DNA of 64,000 nucleotides. It comes from Agromyces sp. CF514. GTDB taxonomy: Bacteria; Actinomycetota; Actinomycetes; Actinomycetales; Microbacteriaceae. Position numbers and translations under genes: made by a program. Shown piece by piece: positions 3,635 through 8,612 of the stretch (positions within the stretch are counted from its first letter, which is position 1; every line of letters starts with the position of its first letter). The DNA lies in contig NZ_FOZD01000002.1 of assembly GCF_900113185.1 (NCBI RefSeq), forward strand, positions 124,001 through 188,000. The letters are read 5' to 3'. A model generated the notes under the pieces. It was not told the origin of the DNA. It did no database searches and saw only the letters and a program-made list of their open reading frames with translations.

Positions 3635-4051
3635 GTGGGAATCAGTTACGTCGAGTTCGAAGACGAAGCCGGGGTCCTGCGCCGCTACCGCAAGCACGCG
3701 AACGGCCGTGGCCTCGTCTCGACGACGGCGAAGGTCGATGCGAGCGCCTTCGTCGACCCGACGGCGTACGTCGATCCGGGAGCCGAGGTGCAGCGCGGCG
3801 CGCGCATCGAGCACGGCGGATGGGTCGAGGCCGGGGCGATCGTCGCCGAGCGCGCGGTCGTGGGCGTGAACGCCCGGATCGGCCAGCGCGCGGTCATCGG
3901 CCGCAGCGCCGTCGTCGGACCGTTCGCCCAGGTGGGCCGGGAGGCGCGCGTGCAGAACGCCGCCCGGGTGCCGCGCGAGTACGTCGTCGAGTCCGGTGCC
4001 GAGTTCGAGGCGTCCGGAGACGACCTGCGGCGGCTCGGCCTCGCGGCCTGA
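3635..4051 (+). CDS. Small left-handed beta-helix (hexapeptide repeat) protein
   Basis: 138 residues starting at GTG 3635 behind a strong GGGAGGA site (3624-3630). From residue ~28 to ~115 it is a run of hexapeptide repeats ([VIL]-G-x-x-[AV]-x), for example DPTAYVDPGAEV, GGWVEAGAIVAERA and RAVIGRSAVVGPFAQVG. This predicts a left-handed beta-helix as in bacterial transferase hexapeptide proteins and gamma-carbonic anhydrases, which act as trimers. No metal-binding histidine triad and no acetyltransferase domain is evident, so it may be a scaffold or an acyltransferase-like protein of unknown substrate. The frame is open upstream to 3389 but only the part from 3635 is family-like. It is monocistronic and ends at a two-sided terminator. 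Confidence 0.82.
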   Translation: MGISYVEFEDEAGVLRRYRKHANGRGLVSTTAKVDASAFVDPTAYVDPGAEVQRGARIEHGGWVEAGAIVAERAVVGVNARIGQRAVIGRSAVVGPFAQVGREARVQNAARVPREYVVESGAEFEASGDDLRRLGLAA

Positions 4052-4100
4052 CGCTCGGAGCCCCGTCGCCGATCCGCTCCACGACGGCGACCACGCGCGA

Positions 4101-4138
4101 ACGACGCCCGCTCGACCATCAGGTCGGGCGGGCGTCGT
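4101..4138. terminator. Two-way terminator hairpin
   Basis: A 17-bp stem (4101-4117 with 4122-4138, one G-T pair) closes a 4-nt ATCA loop. It lies between the convergent hexapeptide gene (ends 4051) and beta-helix lipoprotein gene (ends 4175) and is well placed to end transcription from both sides. There is no T-tract, as usual in this GC range. Confidence 0.85.
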
Positions 4139-4174
4139 CGTGCCGGAAGGCGCCGAGGCGGGAGCCGGAGCCGA

Positions 4175-5962
4175 TCAGCCGCGCGGCGGCTGCCCGCCGC
4201 CACCGCCCATGCCGCCGGAAACCTGCTCGCCGGCCACGCCCGACCCGACGGTCGACCCGTCCGCGGTGGCCGTGTAGGTCTCGCCGTCCACGAGATCGGG
4301 CGAGGAGACCACGATCGACTCGACCTGCTTGAACGTCTCGTAGGTCGCGACGACCGTGCCGTCGGAGGCGACGACCTGCAGCGTCGTTCCCGCTGCTGCC
4401 GTCGAGTCGAGCACGATCGCGACCGAGGCCTGCGCCGAGTCGCTGCCCGGTGCGACGAGCATGCCCGAGCTTCCGGCGGCCACGATGGTTCCGCCGGACA
4501 CGTCGAACGTGCCGTCCACGTCGAGCGCCCCGTTCATCTGCTCGGTCGGTCCGTCGACGACCACCTCGCCGCCCGTGACGGTCGCATCGCCGTTGACGTC
4601 GATGCCGTCGCCGTCGGAGTGCACGACCAGGGTGCCTCCCGAGATCGTGAGCGTGCGGCCCGACGAGCTCGACGACTGGGCGTAGGCGTCGGGTGAGCCG
4701 CCGCCCGTGCCGTCGGCACCGTCGGCCGCGTCCGCGCCGCCTGCGACGTTGACGCCGTCGTCGCTGCCCGAGACCTCGGTGTCGCCGCCGCTGATCGTGA
4801 TCGCGGCCGCTTCGAGGGCTTCGTACGACCGTGTCACGAGCACGGTGCCGCCCGACACGGTGAGCGCGACATCCGCGTGCACGCCGTCGTCGCCCGAGGC
4901 GAGGGTCACGTCGCCGCTCGCGAGGTGGGCCGTGTTGTCCGTGTGCAGCGCGTCGTCGGCGGCGTCGACGTCGATCGTGCCGCCGTCGACGACGACGTAC
5001 ACGTCGCCCTTCACGCCCTTCATCGAGGTCTCGTCGGATGCCGTAGCATCCGCTCCTCCACCCGCGGTGACGTCGAGCGTGCCGCCCCAGATCACGGCGT
5101 CGGTCGCCGCGTCGATGCCGTCGCCGCCCGACACGACCGTGACGTCTCCGCCCGCGATCGCGACGTAGCCGCGCTCGGCCTCTTCGGCGTTGTCGGCCTT
5201 GATGCCGTCGCCGCCCGCGGTCACGTCGATCGTGCCGCCCGTGATCATGACGAGGTCCTTGCCGCGGATGCCGTCATCGGCGGCGTCGACCGTCAGGTCG
5301 CCGCCCGCGATCGTGAGCGCATCGCTCGACGCGATGCCGTCGTTGCCGTTCCCGTGCACGGTGAGGGCTCCGGATCCCGAGATCACGAGGTCGGCGGCGC
5401 TCGCGAGTGCCGCATTCGCCGAGACGTCGTCGGCGTAGCCGGAGGCATCCGACAGTGTGTTCTCACTGCCCGCGGCCAGCACGAGCTGCACCTCGTCGGC
5501 GGCGACGATGTCGATCGCGGCGCCGTCGGCGTTCGCGATGTCGACGCCGTCGAGCACGATCGTCACGTCGGCGTCCGCCGCGTCGACGATGAGCTGCCCG
5601 GTGGTCGAGCCGCTCACCAGGTAGGTGCCCGCGGCCGTGATCGTGACGACGTCGCCGCTCACGGTCACGCCGTCGGCGGCGGTCGGGCTCGCCAGGTCGA
5701 TCGAGATCGCGGATGCCGCGTCGTAGCCCTCGATCGCGGTCGGCGCCTCCTCGTTGTCGGCCATGACCTCGGCCGCGCTCGCGCCGGGTGCGACGGCCGC
5801 TGCCTGCTCGAGGGTGACGGTCGAGTCGCCCGTCGACGCGGAGGTCTCGGCGTCGGCGGCGCCGGCGCAGCTCGCGAGCAGCAGTGTGCCGGTGAGGGCG
5901 AGCGGGGCGAGGCCGGCGGCGATGAACCGGGGGCGGCGGCGGGTGCGCTTCTCGGAGGTCAT
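4175..5962 (-). CDS. Secreted beta-helix lipoprotein (carbohydrate-binding domain / DUF4353-like)
   Basis: 595 residues. A basic N-terminus, hydrophobic stretch and lipobox LLASC give a lipidated Cys at residue 32, so the mature protein is probably anchored outside the membrane. Residues ~90-560 are built from degenerate repeats of the type [IV]SGG-x-[LV]-x-V-x-[AS]-x-DDGI-x-A, rich in Asp and Gly. These predict a parallel beta-helix, probably calcium-binding; this is the 'carbohydrate-binding domain-containing' family often found beside CotH or VTC proteins. The tail is Gly-rich. ATG 5962 overlaps the stop of the VTC gene (ATGA) and has an AAAGGA site 6 nt upstream, so it is the third gene of a coupled unit. 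The ligand is unknown; a role linked to polyphosphate or cell-surface sugar is inference. Confidence 0.85.
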   Translation of the reverse strand: MTSEKRTRRRPRFIAAGLAPLALTGTLLLASCAGAADAETSASTGDSTVTLEQAAAVAPGASAAEVMADNEEAPTAIEGYDAASAISIDLASPTAADGVTVSGDVVTITAAGTYLVSGSTTGQLIVDAADADVTIVLDGVDIANADGAAIDIVAADEVQLVLAAGSENTLSDASGYADDVSANAALASAADLVISGSGALTVHGNGNDGIASSDALTIAGGDLTVDAADDGIRGKDLVMITGGTIDVTAGGDGIKADNAEEAERGYVAIAGGDVTVVSGGDGIDAATDAVIWGGTLDVTAGGGADATASDETSMKGVKGDVYVVVDGGTIDVDAADDALHTDNTAHLASGDVTLASGDDGVHADVALTVSGGTVLVTRSYEALEAAAITISGGDTEVSGSDDGVNVAGGADAADGADGTGGGSPDAYAQSSSSSGRTLTISGGTLVVHSDGDGIDVNGDATVTGGEVVVDGPTEQMNGALDVDGTFDVSGGTIVAAGSSGMLVAPGSDSAQASVAIVLDSTAAAGTTLQVVASDGTVVATYETFKQVESIVVSSPDLVDGETYTATADGSTVGSGVAGEQVSGGMGGGGGQPPRG

Positions 5963-6852
5963 GAGGGGTCCTTTCGGGGAGTCGTGATCGTCGTGCGGCC
6001 GGCGAGAGCCGCAGCCGTGGGAGCCGCAGGCGAGTGCATCGCCTGCGCGAAGTGTGCGCGGAGCACGGGCGCCCACCGGTTGGCGGGCAGTCCGGGTCTG
6101 AGTGCCGCGAGGCCTGTGCCGAACTTCGAGACGGTCGTGGGCCGATGGCCGAGCGACCAGAGGGTGCGATCGATCGGTCCGGCGCTGCCGCCGGACTTCG
6201 TCTCGACGATGACCGAGCGAGGGGTCGAGAGGGTGCGGGCGTGCGCTCCGTGTTCGATCCACTCGAGGTCGACATCGATCGTCGCGCGGGTCCCGCCCGG
6301 AACGAGCAGGGTCGCGCGCCGGTACCGCGTGGTGAGCACGGGCACGAACGGCTCGTGCTCCGGCGGTCGGATGCCGGCCTCGCCGAGCGTGGCCGTCGCG
6401 TAGTCGAGGGCGTCGCCCTGCAGGCTCGTCGTGCCCGACGGGTCGATGGAGACGCGTTCCTTCACCGTGACGGCCCGGCCGCCCCTGGTCTTCACCTCGA
6501 GGAAGCTCGCGTCGGAGTCGACGTACGACCGCGTGCGGATCTTGTACCGCCGCCGTCGACCGTAGGCGGCCAGGTGGTAGCTCTCGAGGTCGCTCGTGTC
6601 GAAGTAGACCGAGTCGTAGCGGGCCGAACGGGTGCCGCCGATCTCGAGGGCGAGGGTTCCCCGCGGCAGGCGCTCCAGCAGCGAGGGCAGCGCGCTCGCC
6701 GGCAGCATGTACTTGCGGTCCACGCGGGTCAGCAGTTCGGCCGACGCGTTCAGCTCGTCGAGGGCGATCGGGTCGAGCGCGGCGATCGGTGCGAGGGCGA
6801 ACGCGGTGGCGGGGGGCTCGAGATGCGGTGTCCCTCGACCCGCGGGGATCAT
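5959..6852 (-). CDS. VTC-domain protein (polyphosphate polymerase-like)
   Basis: 297 residues. The VTC/triphosphate-tunnel features are in order: RVDRKYMLP near residue 45, YFDTSDLESY, the basic run GRRRRYKIRTRSY, FLEVKTRGG, VKERVSI, IDVDLEW and IVETKSG. In yeast Vtc4 such Lys/Arg/Glu residues line a tunnel that makes polyphosphate from ATP; bacterial homologues are poorly studied. There are no membrane segments, so this is a cytoplasmic catalytic subunit. ATG 6852 overlaps the stop of the DUF4956 gene, and its own stop overlaps the start of the lipoprotein gene, both as ATGA. The association of all three products is therefore likely. Catalytic activity is inferred from the family. Confidence 0.85.
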   Translation of the reverse strand: MIPAGRGTPHLEPPATAFALAPIAALDPIALDELNASAELLTRVDRKYMLPASALPSLLERLPRGTLALEIGGTRSARYDSVYFDTSDLESYHLAAYGRRRRYKIRTRSYVDSDASFLEVKTRGGRAVTVKERVSIDPSGTTSLQGDALDYATATLGEAGIRPPEHEPFVPVLTTRYRRATLLVPGGTRATIDVDLEWIEHGAHARTLSTPRSVIVETKSGGSAGPIDRTLWSLGHRPTTVSKFGTGLAALRPGLPANRWAPVLRAHFAQAMHSPAAPTAAALAGRTTITTPRKDPS

Positions 6853-7445
6853 GCGCCGACCGCCTCGTGTCGAAGCGCGGACTCGCGGCGCGGCACCCGA
6901 ACGCGGTCGAGCTCGTAGCGCACGTCGACCGTCGTGGTGTCGTTCACGAGGTCGAGCCGCTCGACGCGGAGCGCGCGCACCCGGGCGCCGAGCAGCGCCT
7001 CGAGTTGCTCCTGCAGTTCGGTCTCGTCGGCGATCGCGCGGTCGACCACGACGAGCTGCTGGCGGTACCGCTGCAGCACGCGGCCGTTGTCGACCGCGGC
7101 GAGCACGGCGACGACGAGCGCCATGAGCGCCGGAGCGGCCCAGCCGAGGGCGGCGCCGAGTCCGCCGATGAGGCCGAGGGCGAGCGCCGCGAAGTAGTAG
7201 GCGACCTCGTGCTGCTGGATCTCGCTCGAGCGCAGTCGGATGATCGAGAGCACGCCGAACAGGCCGAGCCCGAGTCCGGCACCGACCGCGGTCGACCCGA
7301 GCACGAGCGACACGGCGAGCACGCCGATGTTGACCGTCAGGTAGGCGACGAGCAGGTCGCGACGCCGGTGGCGCGGGAAGTACAGGCCGAACACCAGCGC
7401 GCCGACGGCGACCAGGTCGATGGCGAGCAGGAGGATGGGGTCCAT
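6849..7445 (-). CDS. DUF4956 membrane protein
   Basis: 198 residues from ATG 7445 with a CGGAGC site. Four hydrophobic segments lie at about residues 3-22, 31-52, 55-75 and 84-118, followed by a soluble C-terminal domain of ~80 residues ending in RVRVPRRESALR. The pattern LFGVLSIIRLRSSEI fits the DUF4956 family. These proteins regularly neighbour VTC-domain genes and probably supply the membrane part, comparable in role, not in sequence, to the membrane subunit of the yeast VTC complex. It is the first gene of the three-gene unit; a TTGACG hexamer at 7495-7490 on the minus strand may be part of its promoter, but I see no good -10. Confidence 0.83.
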   Translation of the reverse strand: MDPILLLAIDLVAVGALVFGLYFPRHRRRDLLVAYLTVNIGVLAVSLVLGSTAVGAGLGLGLFGVLSIIRLRSSEIQQHEVAYYFAALALGLIGGLGAALGWAAPALMALVVAVLAAVDNGRVLQRYRQQLVVVDRAIADETELQEQLEALLGARVRALRVERLDLVNDTTTVDVRYELDRVRVPRRESALRHEAVGA

Positions 7446-7531
7446 GTGGATGCTCCGAACGTTGTCGAGGCATCCCATTCCGTCAGGCGCGTCAAGCCGG
7501 CCGCTGTGGGCTTCCGATGGCCTTCCTATGC

Positions 7532-7560
7532 GTCACGGGCGCGTTCACTGAACGCGTGAC
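7532..7560 (-). terminator. Imperfect hairpin after the LLM oxidoreductase gene
   Basis: GCGTTC-ACT-GAACGC forms the inner stem and GTCAC/GTGAC the outer one, with a 4-nt bulge. It begins six bases after the LLM gene's stop on the minus strand, consistent with a terminator separating it from the DUF4956 operon. Confidence 0.55.
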
Positions 7561-7565
7561 ACGAC

Positions 7566-8612
7566 TCAGAACAGGCGTTCGGCGAGCAGCGCGAGGGTCT
7601 GCTCGCGGCCCGGCGAGGCATCCGTCGCCTCTGGCGCATATGCGCCCGAGATGGGCGAGATCATGACCTCGTCGATGCCGTGGCGCGTCGCGAGGGTGCG
7701 CAGTTCGGATGCCGCGGCATCCGCATCGCCGATGATCCAGCGTCGCTCCATGCCGGCGATGAGCTCCTCGACCATGGAGTCGGCGGGTGCGGCCTGGGCC
7801 TCTTCGACGGTCTCGAGCTCGCGCATCGGGCGGTTCGTGCGCAGGCGGGCCATGGCGCGCAGCTGCGGCAGCGCACGCGCCCGGGCCTCGTCTGCCGTGG
7901 GCGCGACCGAGGCGTTCGCGGTGAGGAAGGTCTCGGGCGTCGGGTGCGCCTCGCTCGGCCGGTACTCGGTGCGGTACAGCTCGAGCGCGCGCTCGAGCCC
8001 CTCGCCCGAGAAGTGGTTCGCGAACACGTAGGGCAGGCCGAGCGAGGCCGCGAGCTTCGCCGAGTAGTCGCTCGACCCGAGCAGCCACACCTGCGGCGTG
8101 CCGGTCGCGGCGGGCGTGGCCGTGATCGCGTACTCGCGCCCGCTCGTGAGGCGCAGCGTCGCGCCGTCGGGCGAGACGAGGCCGAGGATGTCGGCGATGT
8201 GATCGGGGAACCGGTCGACGTCGGCCGTCGGCCCCGAGATGCGCAGCAACTGCGTGATGACCGGGTCGCTGCCCGGTGCGCGGCCGAGGCCGAGGTCGAT
8301 GCGGCCAGGGGCGATGGCCTCGAGCGCGGCGAACTGCTCGGCGACGACGAACGGCGCGTGGTTCGGCAGCATGACCCCGCCGGACCCGACACGGATGCGT
8401 TCGGTCTGCGCGACCGTGGCCGCGATGAGCACGGGCGGGGTGGTCGAGGCCACCGACCGCATGTTGTGGTGCTCGGCGAACCAGTAGCGGGTGAACCCCA
8501 GCCGGTCGGCGAGCTTCGCCAGGCCGACGGATGCCGCGACGGCCCCCGCACTGGTCTGGCCGCTCCGCACGGGAACGAGGTCGAGCACGGACAGGCGCAG
8601 CGTTTCAGACAT
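7566..8612 (-). CDS. LLM-class flavin-dependent oxidoreductase, MsnO8-like
   Basis: 348 residues with the bacterial-luciferase-like fold. The N-terminus LRLSVLDLVPVRSG and the motif YWFAEHHNM near residue 45 are typical of the MsnO8-like subgroup, which uses reduced FMN; RIDLGLGRAPGSDP and PQVWLLGSSDYSA are further family stretches. The C-terminal half has the usual GDADAAASEL segment for the cofactor phosphate side. Members are often found as single genes with unknown substrate. ATG 8612 has no obvious ribosome binding site. It is divergent from the FAD oxidoreductase gene at 8922, so the two redox enzymes share a 309-bp control region. Confidence 0.88.
   Translation of the reverse strand: MSETLRLSVLDLVPVRSGQTSAGAVAASVGLAKLADRLGFTRYWFAEHHNMRSVASTTPPVLIAATVAQTERIRVGSGGVMLPNHAPFVVAEQFAALEAIAPGRIDLGLGRAPGSDPVITQLLRISGPTADVDRFPDHIADILGLVSPDGATLRLTSGREYAITATPAATGTPQVWLLGSSDYSAKLAASLGLPYVFANHFSGEGLERALELYRTEYRPSEAHPTPETFLTANASVAPTADEARARALPQLRAMARLRTNRPMRELETVEEAQAAPADSMVEELIAGMERRWIIGDADAAASELRTLATRHGIDEVMISPISGAYAPEATDASPGREQTLALLAERLF
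7707..7722. repeat. Full copy of the genome-wide palindrome GGATGCCGCGGCATCC
   Basis: Perfect 16-bp palindrome inside the LLM oxidoreductase gene, encoding part of the DAAAS sequence on the coding strand. Confidence 0.95.

Follow-up and report, generated by a model that had tools for sequence, protein, structure and literature searches.

A conserved DUF4956–VTC gene unit with an exported partner in Agromyces sp. CF514, a possible membrane-bound polyphosphate synthase

Streptococci and clostridia carry genes for a CotH protein, a polyphosphate polymerase and a DUF4956 protein next to pelDEADAFG, and bifidobacteria have a similar group; the same report also places DUF4832 with these genes beside Pel genes (PMC7112168, 2020). 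In Streptococcus intermedius, SIR_1592 (MgtC plus ACT), SIR_1593 (polymerase) and SIR_1594 (CotH) were deleted singly in a later study (PMC12345266, 2025), and SIR_1592–1594 would correspond to the CotH, polymerase and DUF4956 genes of the 2020 group. According to the 2025 study, aggregation in sputum medium fell by over half when SIR_1592 or SIR_1594 was lost; Pel was raised in the first mutant and lowered in the second. A section heading in that study describes SIR_1591–1594 as not required for Pel production, and the three-gene order is stated not to be found outside Pel loci. Here we report on a related unit from Agromyces sp. CF514, in which a DUF4956 membrane protein and a VTC-domain enzyme are encoded together with a beta-helix lipoprotein of the Cthe_2159 family. 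It lies in a stretch of 64,000 nucleotides (the window; contig NZ_FOZD01000002.1, positions 124,001 to 188,000). A preliminary description took the unit for an undescribed system; the CotH form, however, is already published as a Pel-locus accessory in both papers. Among the papers searched, none was found to name Cthe_2159 together with the VTC domain or DUF4956. The three-gene unit is real and conserved, and its products probably act as one machine. From sequence comparisons, we tentatively favour its being a membrane-bound VTC-type polyphosphate synthase with a dedicated outer-surface partner.

The genes run from 7445 to 4175 on the minus strand in the order DUF4956, VTC, Cthe_2159-family lipoprotein. 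Coordinates, Pfam matches and sequence agree with the preliminary description, which placed three genes at 4175..7445 with ATGA at both junctions. The features of the unit are:

6849..7445, minus strand: DUF4956 gene, 198 amino acids (Pfam PF16316, E 9e-61)
5959..6852, minus strand: VTC-domain gene, triphosphate-tunnel enzyme, 297 amino acids (Pfam PF09359, E 1.2e-22)
4175..5962, minus strand: Cthe_2159-family beta-helix lipoprotein gene, 595 amino acids (Pfam PF14262, E 3e-85)
6849..6852, minus strand: ATGA stop/start overlap from DUF4956 to VTC, 4 bases, read from the sequence
5959..5962, minus strand: ATGA stop/start overlap from VTC to lipoprotein, 4 bases, read from the sequence
5867..5962, minus strand: signal peptide and lipobox LASC with lipid-anchor Cys32, from the translation; hydrophobic stretch at residues 12–30

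The Pfam matches of all three proteins are well over cut-off, and an NCBIfam scan gave only matches far under the NCBIfam cut-offs. A genome search found one gene of each family, all at this locus; for Cthe_2159 it returned two matching stretches, both in one frame.

The families are closely associated in other genomes. A sample of 396 related genomes from one phylum, which includes the window's own genome, contained VTC in 41 genomes, DUF4956 in 43, Cthe_2159 in 22 and CotH in 30. DUF4956 was present in all 41 VTC genomes, and the DUF4956 genomes without VTC were G300 (below cut-off) and G330. Co-occurrence was far over chance (Fisher test with kinship ignored; p 8e-54 for VTC with DUF4956, p 2e-20 for VTC with Cthe_2159). 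A DUF4956 gene lay within 1.2 kilobases (kb) on the same strand at 43 of 44 VTC places. Within 6 kb on either strand, 17 of these places had Cthe_2159 only, 23 had CotH only and one had both. The three places with neither partner lie on contigs of fragmented assemblies, and two of the three genomes carry CotH on another contig; Cthe_2159 or CotH is carried by 40 of the 41 VTC genomes. The counts at the 44 places were entered by hand from tables; where a VTC match was split its second piece was not counted, nor was a second piece of one CotH match, and additional or weak matching stretches in Cthe_2159 proteins were also omitted. Nearer to the window, VTC was found in 11 of 30 genomes (its own included); DUF4956 adjoins VTC at 11 of 11 loci, and within short flanks Cthe_2159 was seen at nine and CotH at none. 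Among 14 control genomes, VTC and DUF4956 occurred together in Bacteroides ihuae, Corynebacterium glutamicum and Methanosarcina acetivorans; Cthe_2159 was found only in B. ihuae, and CotH in C. glutamicum, M. acetivorans and Bacillus subtilis. The trio thus recurs in many genera, whereas the preliminary description had named its absence elsewhere as grounds for rejection.

Gene order was read in 80 named loci, taken as the best among 514 that a DUF4956 search returned, a choice that favours close relatives; the closest is that of Agromyces terreus, with a DUF4956 protein of 85% identity. VTC is present in 78 of the 80, accompanied by Cthe_2159 in 47, CotH in 24, both in one and neither in six. 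One of these six loci, L102, is a 3.1-kb contig, and no alternative third gene was evident in the five inspected with a crude gene caller and without a family scan. Three Salinibacterium loci (L059, L060 and L062) have VTC–DUF4956 with upstream repeats and no Cthe_2159 or CotH nearby, and a further Salinibacterium locus, L066, has Cthe_2159 there. In G126:C1:191830-193102 (L023, L174), both VTC and DUF4956 contain an in-frame stop, which may reflect a decaying copy or an assembly error. A third conserved neighbour family was sought and rejected: none exceeded 11 of the 80 loci with the crude caller, which recognised VTC in only 35. One neighbour family, in 15 of the 80, overlaps the unit on the opposite strand in every case and has the look of an antisense shadow frame. 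A search for DUF4956 on plasmids gave two partial matches only and was uninformative.

The junction of DUF4956 and VTC is kept in almost all loci. The gene starts used in the locus scripts were guesses; with these, the 78 named loci with both genes comprised 52 ATGA, 20 GTGA, one TTGA and four CTGA overlaps and one pair out of register. The overlap is therefore in the same register in 77 of 78, with an ATG, GTG or TTG start in 73. Of 69 loci scored for an overlap from VTC to the third gene, 19 show it; in some of the 69, the third gene lies upstream of VTC. The first overlap is conserved and the second is not. The two ATGA overlaps had been taken as a sign of a stoichiometric complex; such overlaps indicate co-translation, not stoichiometry.

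The VTC enzyme carries the residues expected of a polyphosphate polymerase of the Vtc4 kind. We aligned 38 proteins of two gene-order clades out of 41 fetched, omitting the near-duplicate L022, L023 with its stop and the fused L037. Twenty-one columns are invariant, and yeast Vtc4 is identical at 18 of them (R196, K200, S239, Y241, D243, R264, R266, Y268, E279, K281, K294, R361, R373, D377, E426, K428, S457 and K458). The tunnel residues, whose loss had been named beforehand as counting against the enzyme, are present and Vtc4-like: the counterparts of K200, K281, R361, R373 and K458, which we take to have tunnel roles, and of R264, R266 and E426 are invariant in 38 of 38 proteins. The last three are the residues changed in R264A/R266A/E426N, the impaired Vtc4 form used for a cryo-electron microscopy structure (PMC9911596). 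With the 38-protein profile, a PDB search retrieved Vtc chains only (10 of 10, best 3g3q at E 3.7e-25). The model of the window protein has a pLDDT (predicted local distance difference test) of 89; its 13 best fold matches in the PDB, at a TM-score (template-modelling score) of about 0.5, are all Vtc chains, Vtc4 ranking first. No membrane helix was found in it by hydropathy, and the Pfam scan shows the VTC domain alone.

The same searches bear on whether the protein is instead a tripolyphosphatase or another tunnel enzyme of the CYTH kind. The enzymes ygiF, AtTTM3 and thiamine triphosphatase appear in the fold search, although at weaker E-values; Vtc4 comes first by both profile and fold, no CYTH chain is found by the profile at E up to 1, and the positions equivalent to Vtc4 E426 and K458 do not vary in the alignment. 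We regard a CYTH-kind activity as highly improbable. The strictly kept active site argues for polyphosphate-type chemistry at the membrane, and polyphosphate synthesis by the window VTC protein is likely. An ordinary polyphosphate kinase is encoded elsewhere in the genome (PF02503, E 7.2e-65); therefore, the VTC protein would be a special-purpose enzyme rather than a storage enzyme.

The DUF4956 protein was modeled by AlphaFold with five helices (residues 3–25, 29–51, 55–72, 78–95 and 103–119), followed by a C-terminal E-H-E-E (beta-alpha-beta-beta) domain. The mean pLDDT is 72 and the pTM (predicted template-modelling score) 0.49, with 83–92 in the soluble domain. The positive-inside rule suggests an N-out/C-in topology. 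Residues Y22, R70, R72 and G91 are invariant in 38 DUF4956 proteins of both clades, and if the RHRRR segment at 25–29 is taken as inside, helix 3 would have R70 and R72 at its cytosolic end. The 38-protein alignment matched 33 MgtC proteins with an hhalign probability of 97.0 (E 8e-11) over 193 columns at 13% identity. The second DUF4956 clade alone gave 98.1 (E 1e-13), the window's clade alone only 67.7 (E 5e-5), and a reversed control E 0.24. Against only three MgtC proteins, the 38-protein alignment reached E 3.6e-7 and the window's clade a probability of 2.9. Single MgtC proteins scored 47.8, 32.0 and 23.4, and the highest score of 55 multi-helix decoys was 23.0, so that the weakest barely exceeds the decoys. 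By these profile comparisons, DUF4956 is a remote relative of MgtC, homologous in both the membrane core and the C-terminal ACT-like domain. An MgtC domain plus an ACT domain is already stated for SIR_1592, without the name DUF4956, in PMC12345266; SIR_1592 would be a DUF4956 protein, and the link found here is therefore a confirmation.

This relationship, together with upstream repeats of a kind read by OmpR/PhoB-type regulators (described below), would suit a sensor of phosphate, ATP or magnesium homeostasis. In such a sensor, DUF4956 would act on the ATP or phosphate balance, as proposed for MgtC, its ACT-like domain would sense a small molecule, VTC would serve as an ATP sink, and the outer protein would report ions or glycans outside. 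However, a sensor has no need of an exchangeable outer kinase or beta-helix protein, and we know of no VTC partners of MgtC proteins themselves. We consider a homeostasis sensor quite unlikely.

The third protein is exported and comes in two main forms. Signal-like N-termini were found by a permissive scan in 43 of 47 Cthe_2159 relatives and 24 of 24 CotH partners (one and three opposite-strand proteins, respectively, left out), and a permissive pattern scan found a lipobox-like start in 32 of the 47 same-strand Cthe_2159 relatives. No CotH match was found in the window's genome. The window lipoprotein is probably calcium-binding and very acidic, with 68 D and 21 E against 10 K/R past residue 30, and its relatives have a median charge of −12 per 100 residues. 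Residues 87–304 (218 residues) match PDB 4peu/4phb at E 4.9e-39. Nine positions are invariant in 49 of 49 family members, the window's included (D208, D214, D229, R233, D252, E381, D401, D402 and N405). The founding Cthe_2159 is reported to bind cellulosic and acidic glycans (summarised in PMC6712302). Among the CotH partners, D224 and W264 are kept in 27 of 27 and D265 in 26 of 27 (numbering of the first CotH sequence). Two unusual frames were seen. L125:4513-6882 (minus strand) holds a single 790-residue frame with VTC (29–232), a hydrophobic helix (304–322), a lipobox-like AAGC and CotH (427–769); it would put the enzyme inside and the kinase outside, and may be a true fusion or a product of a lost stop. 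In the Acidimicrobiales locus L123:4109-5962, GT2, GtrA and DUF4956 share one 618-residue frame beside VTC, CotH and an opposite-strand Cthe_2159. That one exported partner is regularly present speaks for use of the product outside or at the surface. The preliminary description had imagined a membrane machine; the arrangement with an outer partner stands, through gene coupling, signal sequences and the VTC-helix-CotH frame, whereas the lipoprotein is not a fixed part, as CotH takes its place elsewhere.

The neighbourhoods of the unit bear on a possible alternative, although one that we consider less probable, in which it is an exopolysaccharide or adhesion module. The outer protein would bind or modify a surface glycan, CotH may phosphorylate surface proteins or glycans, and VTC and DUF4956 would couple this to the inner phosphate or ATP supply; polyphosphate may then stay inside. 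The adjacency of the CotH group to pelDEADAFG, the altered Pel level and aggregation in the SIR_1592 and CotH mutants, and the glycan binding of the founding Cthe_2159 are consistent with such a module. At L135:108-4935, VTC–DUF4956–CotH is followed by a 754-residue protein without a Pfam match, a HEAT-repeat protein and a chitin-synthase-like GT2, an order that resembles NELoc-2 of C. perfringens as tabulated in PMC2879425; this GT2/HEAT cassette recurs only partly, in L174. The GT2-GtrA-DUF4956 frame of L123, the GT4 and Wzy genes in L176, and GH11, GH3, GH9 and CBM6 among the neighbours of CotH-type loci also fit. However, the four scanned neighbours in the window encode a luciferase-like monooxygenase, a UDPGT-like glycosyltransferase, a hexapeptide protein and an FAD-binding protein, and no family is widely recurrent in the 80 loci. 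The 2025 heading has Pel production independent of SIR_1591–1594, and an adhesion module leaves the strictly kept VTC active site unexplained.

Overall, the neighbours read comprise glycosyltransferases, the GT2/HEAT cassette, RsgI-like anti-sigma proteins, cellulase-type hydrolases, transporters and regulators. Flanking Pel genes were looked for at CotH-type loci and rejected: in a scan of 53 neighbour proteins (50 of the 100 listed for CotH-type named loci and three of L135), no Pel family was among the 25 listed of 86 families, and the other 61 could include one. Among 20 neighbours tabulated in full, 10 of which are within the 50, there was no Pel family. At the window, none of the four scanned neighbours is a Pel gene; no genome-wide search for Pel was made. 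The neighbours read here do not support the claim that the trio occurs only in Pel loci. RsgI-like anti-sigma proteins adjoin the CotH-type unit at L171:11937-12785 and L173:11511-12575, and control by an outside polysaccharide may be at work there.

For the polyphosphate synthase that we favour, the following sequence of events can be proposed. The tunnel-folded VTC enzyme would most probably transfer gamma-phosphates of ATP to a growing phosphate chain at the inner membrane face. The MgtC-like DUF4956 protein would, with similar probability, hold the enzyme at the membrane, probably docking or sensing through its ACT-like C-terminal domain. A DUF4956 oligomer might then be the place where the chain, or a signal from its synthesis, crosses the membrane; the invariant R-x-R (R70, R72) and, in the window's clade, RHRRR at 25–29 would sit at the cytosolic mouth of such an oligomer. 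Outside, the third protein would receive the chain or signal, the CotH kinase taking that place in other genomes. In the window, the acidic lipoprotein could anchor a layer of calcium-polyphosphate or acidic glycan. The unit may in this way link inner phosphate chemistry to the cell surface. A bolder extension, which we hold to be unlikely, is that VTC polyphosphate is threaded out through an MgtC-like DUF4956 pore and there either serves exported CotH kinases as a phosphoryl donor where ATP is lacking or is captured by the calcium-binding lipoprotein as a surface calcium-polyphosphate layer. CotH and Cthe_2159 would then be interchangeable outlets of one pump.

Several observations weigh against a polyphosphate synthase with an outer partner. 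Vtc4 differs at three of the 21 invariant columns (G73, K104 and T191), and the profile and fold searches also retrieve the non-catalytic Vtc2 and Vtc3. Among the literature matches listed, no study of a prokaryotic VTC enzyme was recognised, and no report was found of polyphosphate synthesis by a bacterial VTC protein or of transfer of the polymer across the membrane. The DUF4956 model matched no PDB fold at E below 0.001, and its profile found no Vtc1 among PDB sequences and gave one weak match (E 0.22), to a designed protein. With neither a Vtc1 nor a fold match, and with helices at moderate model confidence, a DUF4956 channel is a guess. An acidic beta-helix would be an odd binder of a polyanion unless metal ions bridge the two, and the VTC-helix-CotH frame of L125 could be two genes minus a stop codon. 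One VTC place (G231) is without DUF4956, and two of the 80 named loci have DUF4956 and CotH without VTC. Finally, no loss of aggregation is reported for the SIR_1593 polymerase deletion in the available part of PMC12345266, which calls for caution in making the polymerase the whole story.

Expression of the unit may depend on direct repeats upstream of DUF4956. In the window they are:

7514..7530, minus strand: direct repeat CATAGG-N5-CATCGG with an 11-base-pair (bp) period; candidate OmpR/PhoB-type activator site
7503-7508, minus strand: third, weaker repeat unit CACAGC

OmpR/PhoB-type regulators usually recognise 11-bp direct repeats. At least two CATAGG-like hexamers with 11-bp spacing were found upstream of DUF4956 in 34 of 81 regions (the 80 named loci and the window), against an expectation of 0.2 in shuffled sequence, which preserves base composition only, and of about 0.6 in segments drawn at random from those loci. 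Three or four CATAGG-type units are present in 11 of the 81. The repeats follow the Cthe_2159 type: they occur in 28 of 47 such loci, 1 of 26 of the CotH type and 4 of 6 VTC-only named loci (p 1e-6 for Cthe_2159 against CotH, kinship ignored). As many Cthe_2159-type loci have these repeats, they may serve a regulator that activates the unit, and the window repeat is, from its sequence, a candidate activator site. It is the sole strict match in the 4.3-Mb (megabase) genome, and the repeat as the mark of a regulon was therefore rejected. The CATAGG motif was not found in the literature among the matches listed.

Other signals near the unit were noted by eye. A perfect palindrome, CGCGTTC-ACT-GAACGCG, lies at 7540-7556 between the luciferase-like and DUF4956 genes and could be an operator, or a terminator without a T run. 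Directly downstream of the lipoprotein gene, a long G+C-rich inverted repeat (ACGACGCCCGC...GCGGGCGTCGT) at 4101-4138 perhaps marks the transcript end; it has no T run and was missed by the terminator scan. A promoter and terminator consensus scan of 4000-7700 gave no match.

The unit touches on the phosphate source of secreted kinases, the role of bacterial VTC proteins beside polyphosphate kinase and the role of MgtC-type proteins. It ties a kept polymerase active site, an MgtC-like membrane protein and an exchangeable surface protein together in compact form, which allows all three questions to be tested in a harmless actinobacterium. The printed statement limiting the trio to Pel loci is now in question.

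Compared with the CotH/polymerase/DUF4956 group of Pel loci, the window unit has the same adjacent VTC and DUF4956 families and an exported third protein. However, that protein is a Cthe_2159 beta-helix lipoprotein in a genome without a CotH match, and contiguity with pelDEADAFG was not seen in the four neighbours scanned. The yeast VTC complex (Vtc4/Vtc3/Vtc1) shares the tunnel domain with its active-site residues and the tie of the enzyme to a membrane part, whereas the window unit has no SPX domain or fused membrane helices (by Pfam and hydropathy). Its membrane partner is MgtC-like without a sequence match to Vtc1, and the far side of the membrane would be the outside of the cell. Cthe_2159 of Clostridium thermocellum (PDB 4peu, 4phb) belongs to the same beta-helix family, but the window protein exceeds the crystallised chain in length, has a lipid anchor and is encoded together with VTC and DUF4956. 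MgtC aligns with DUF4956 across the membrane core and C-terminal domain; nevertheless, the identity is low, the two are separate Pfam families, and DUF4956 has its own invariant Y22, R70, R72 and G91.

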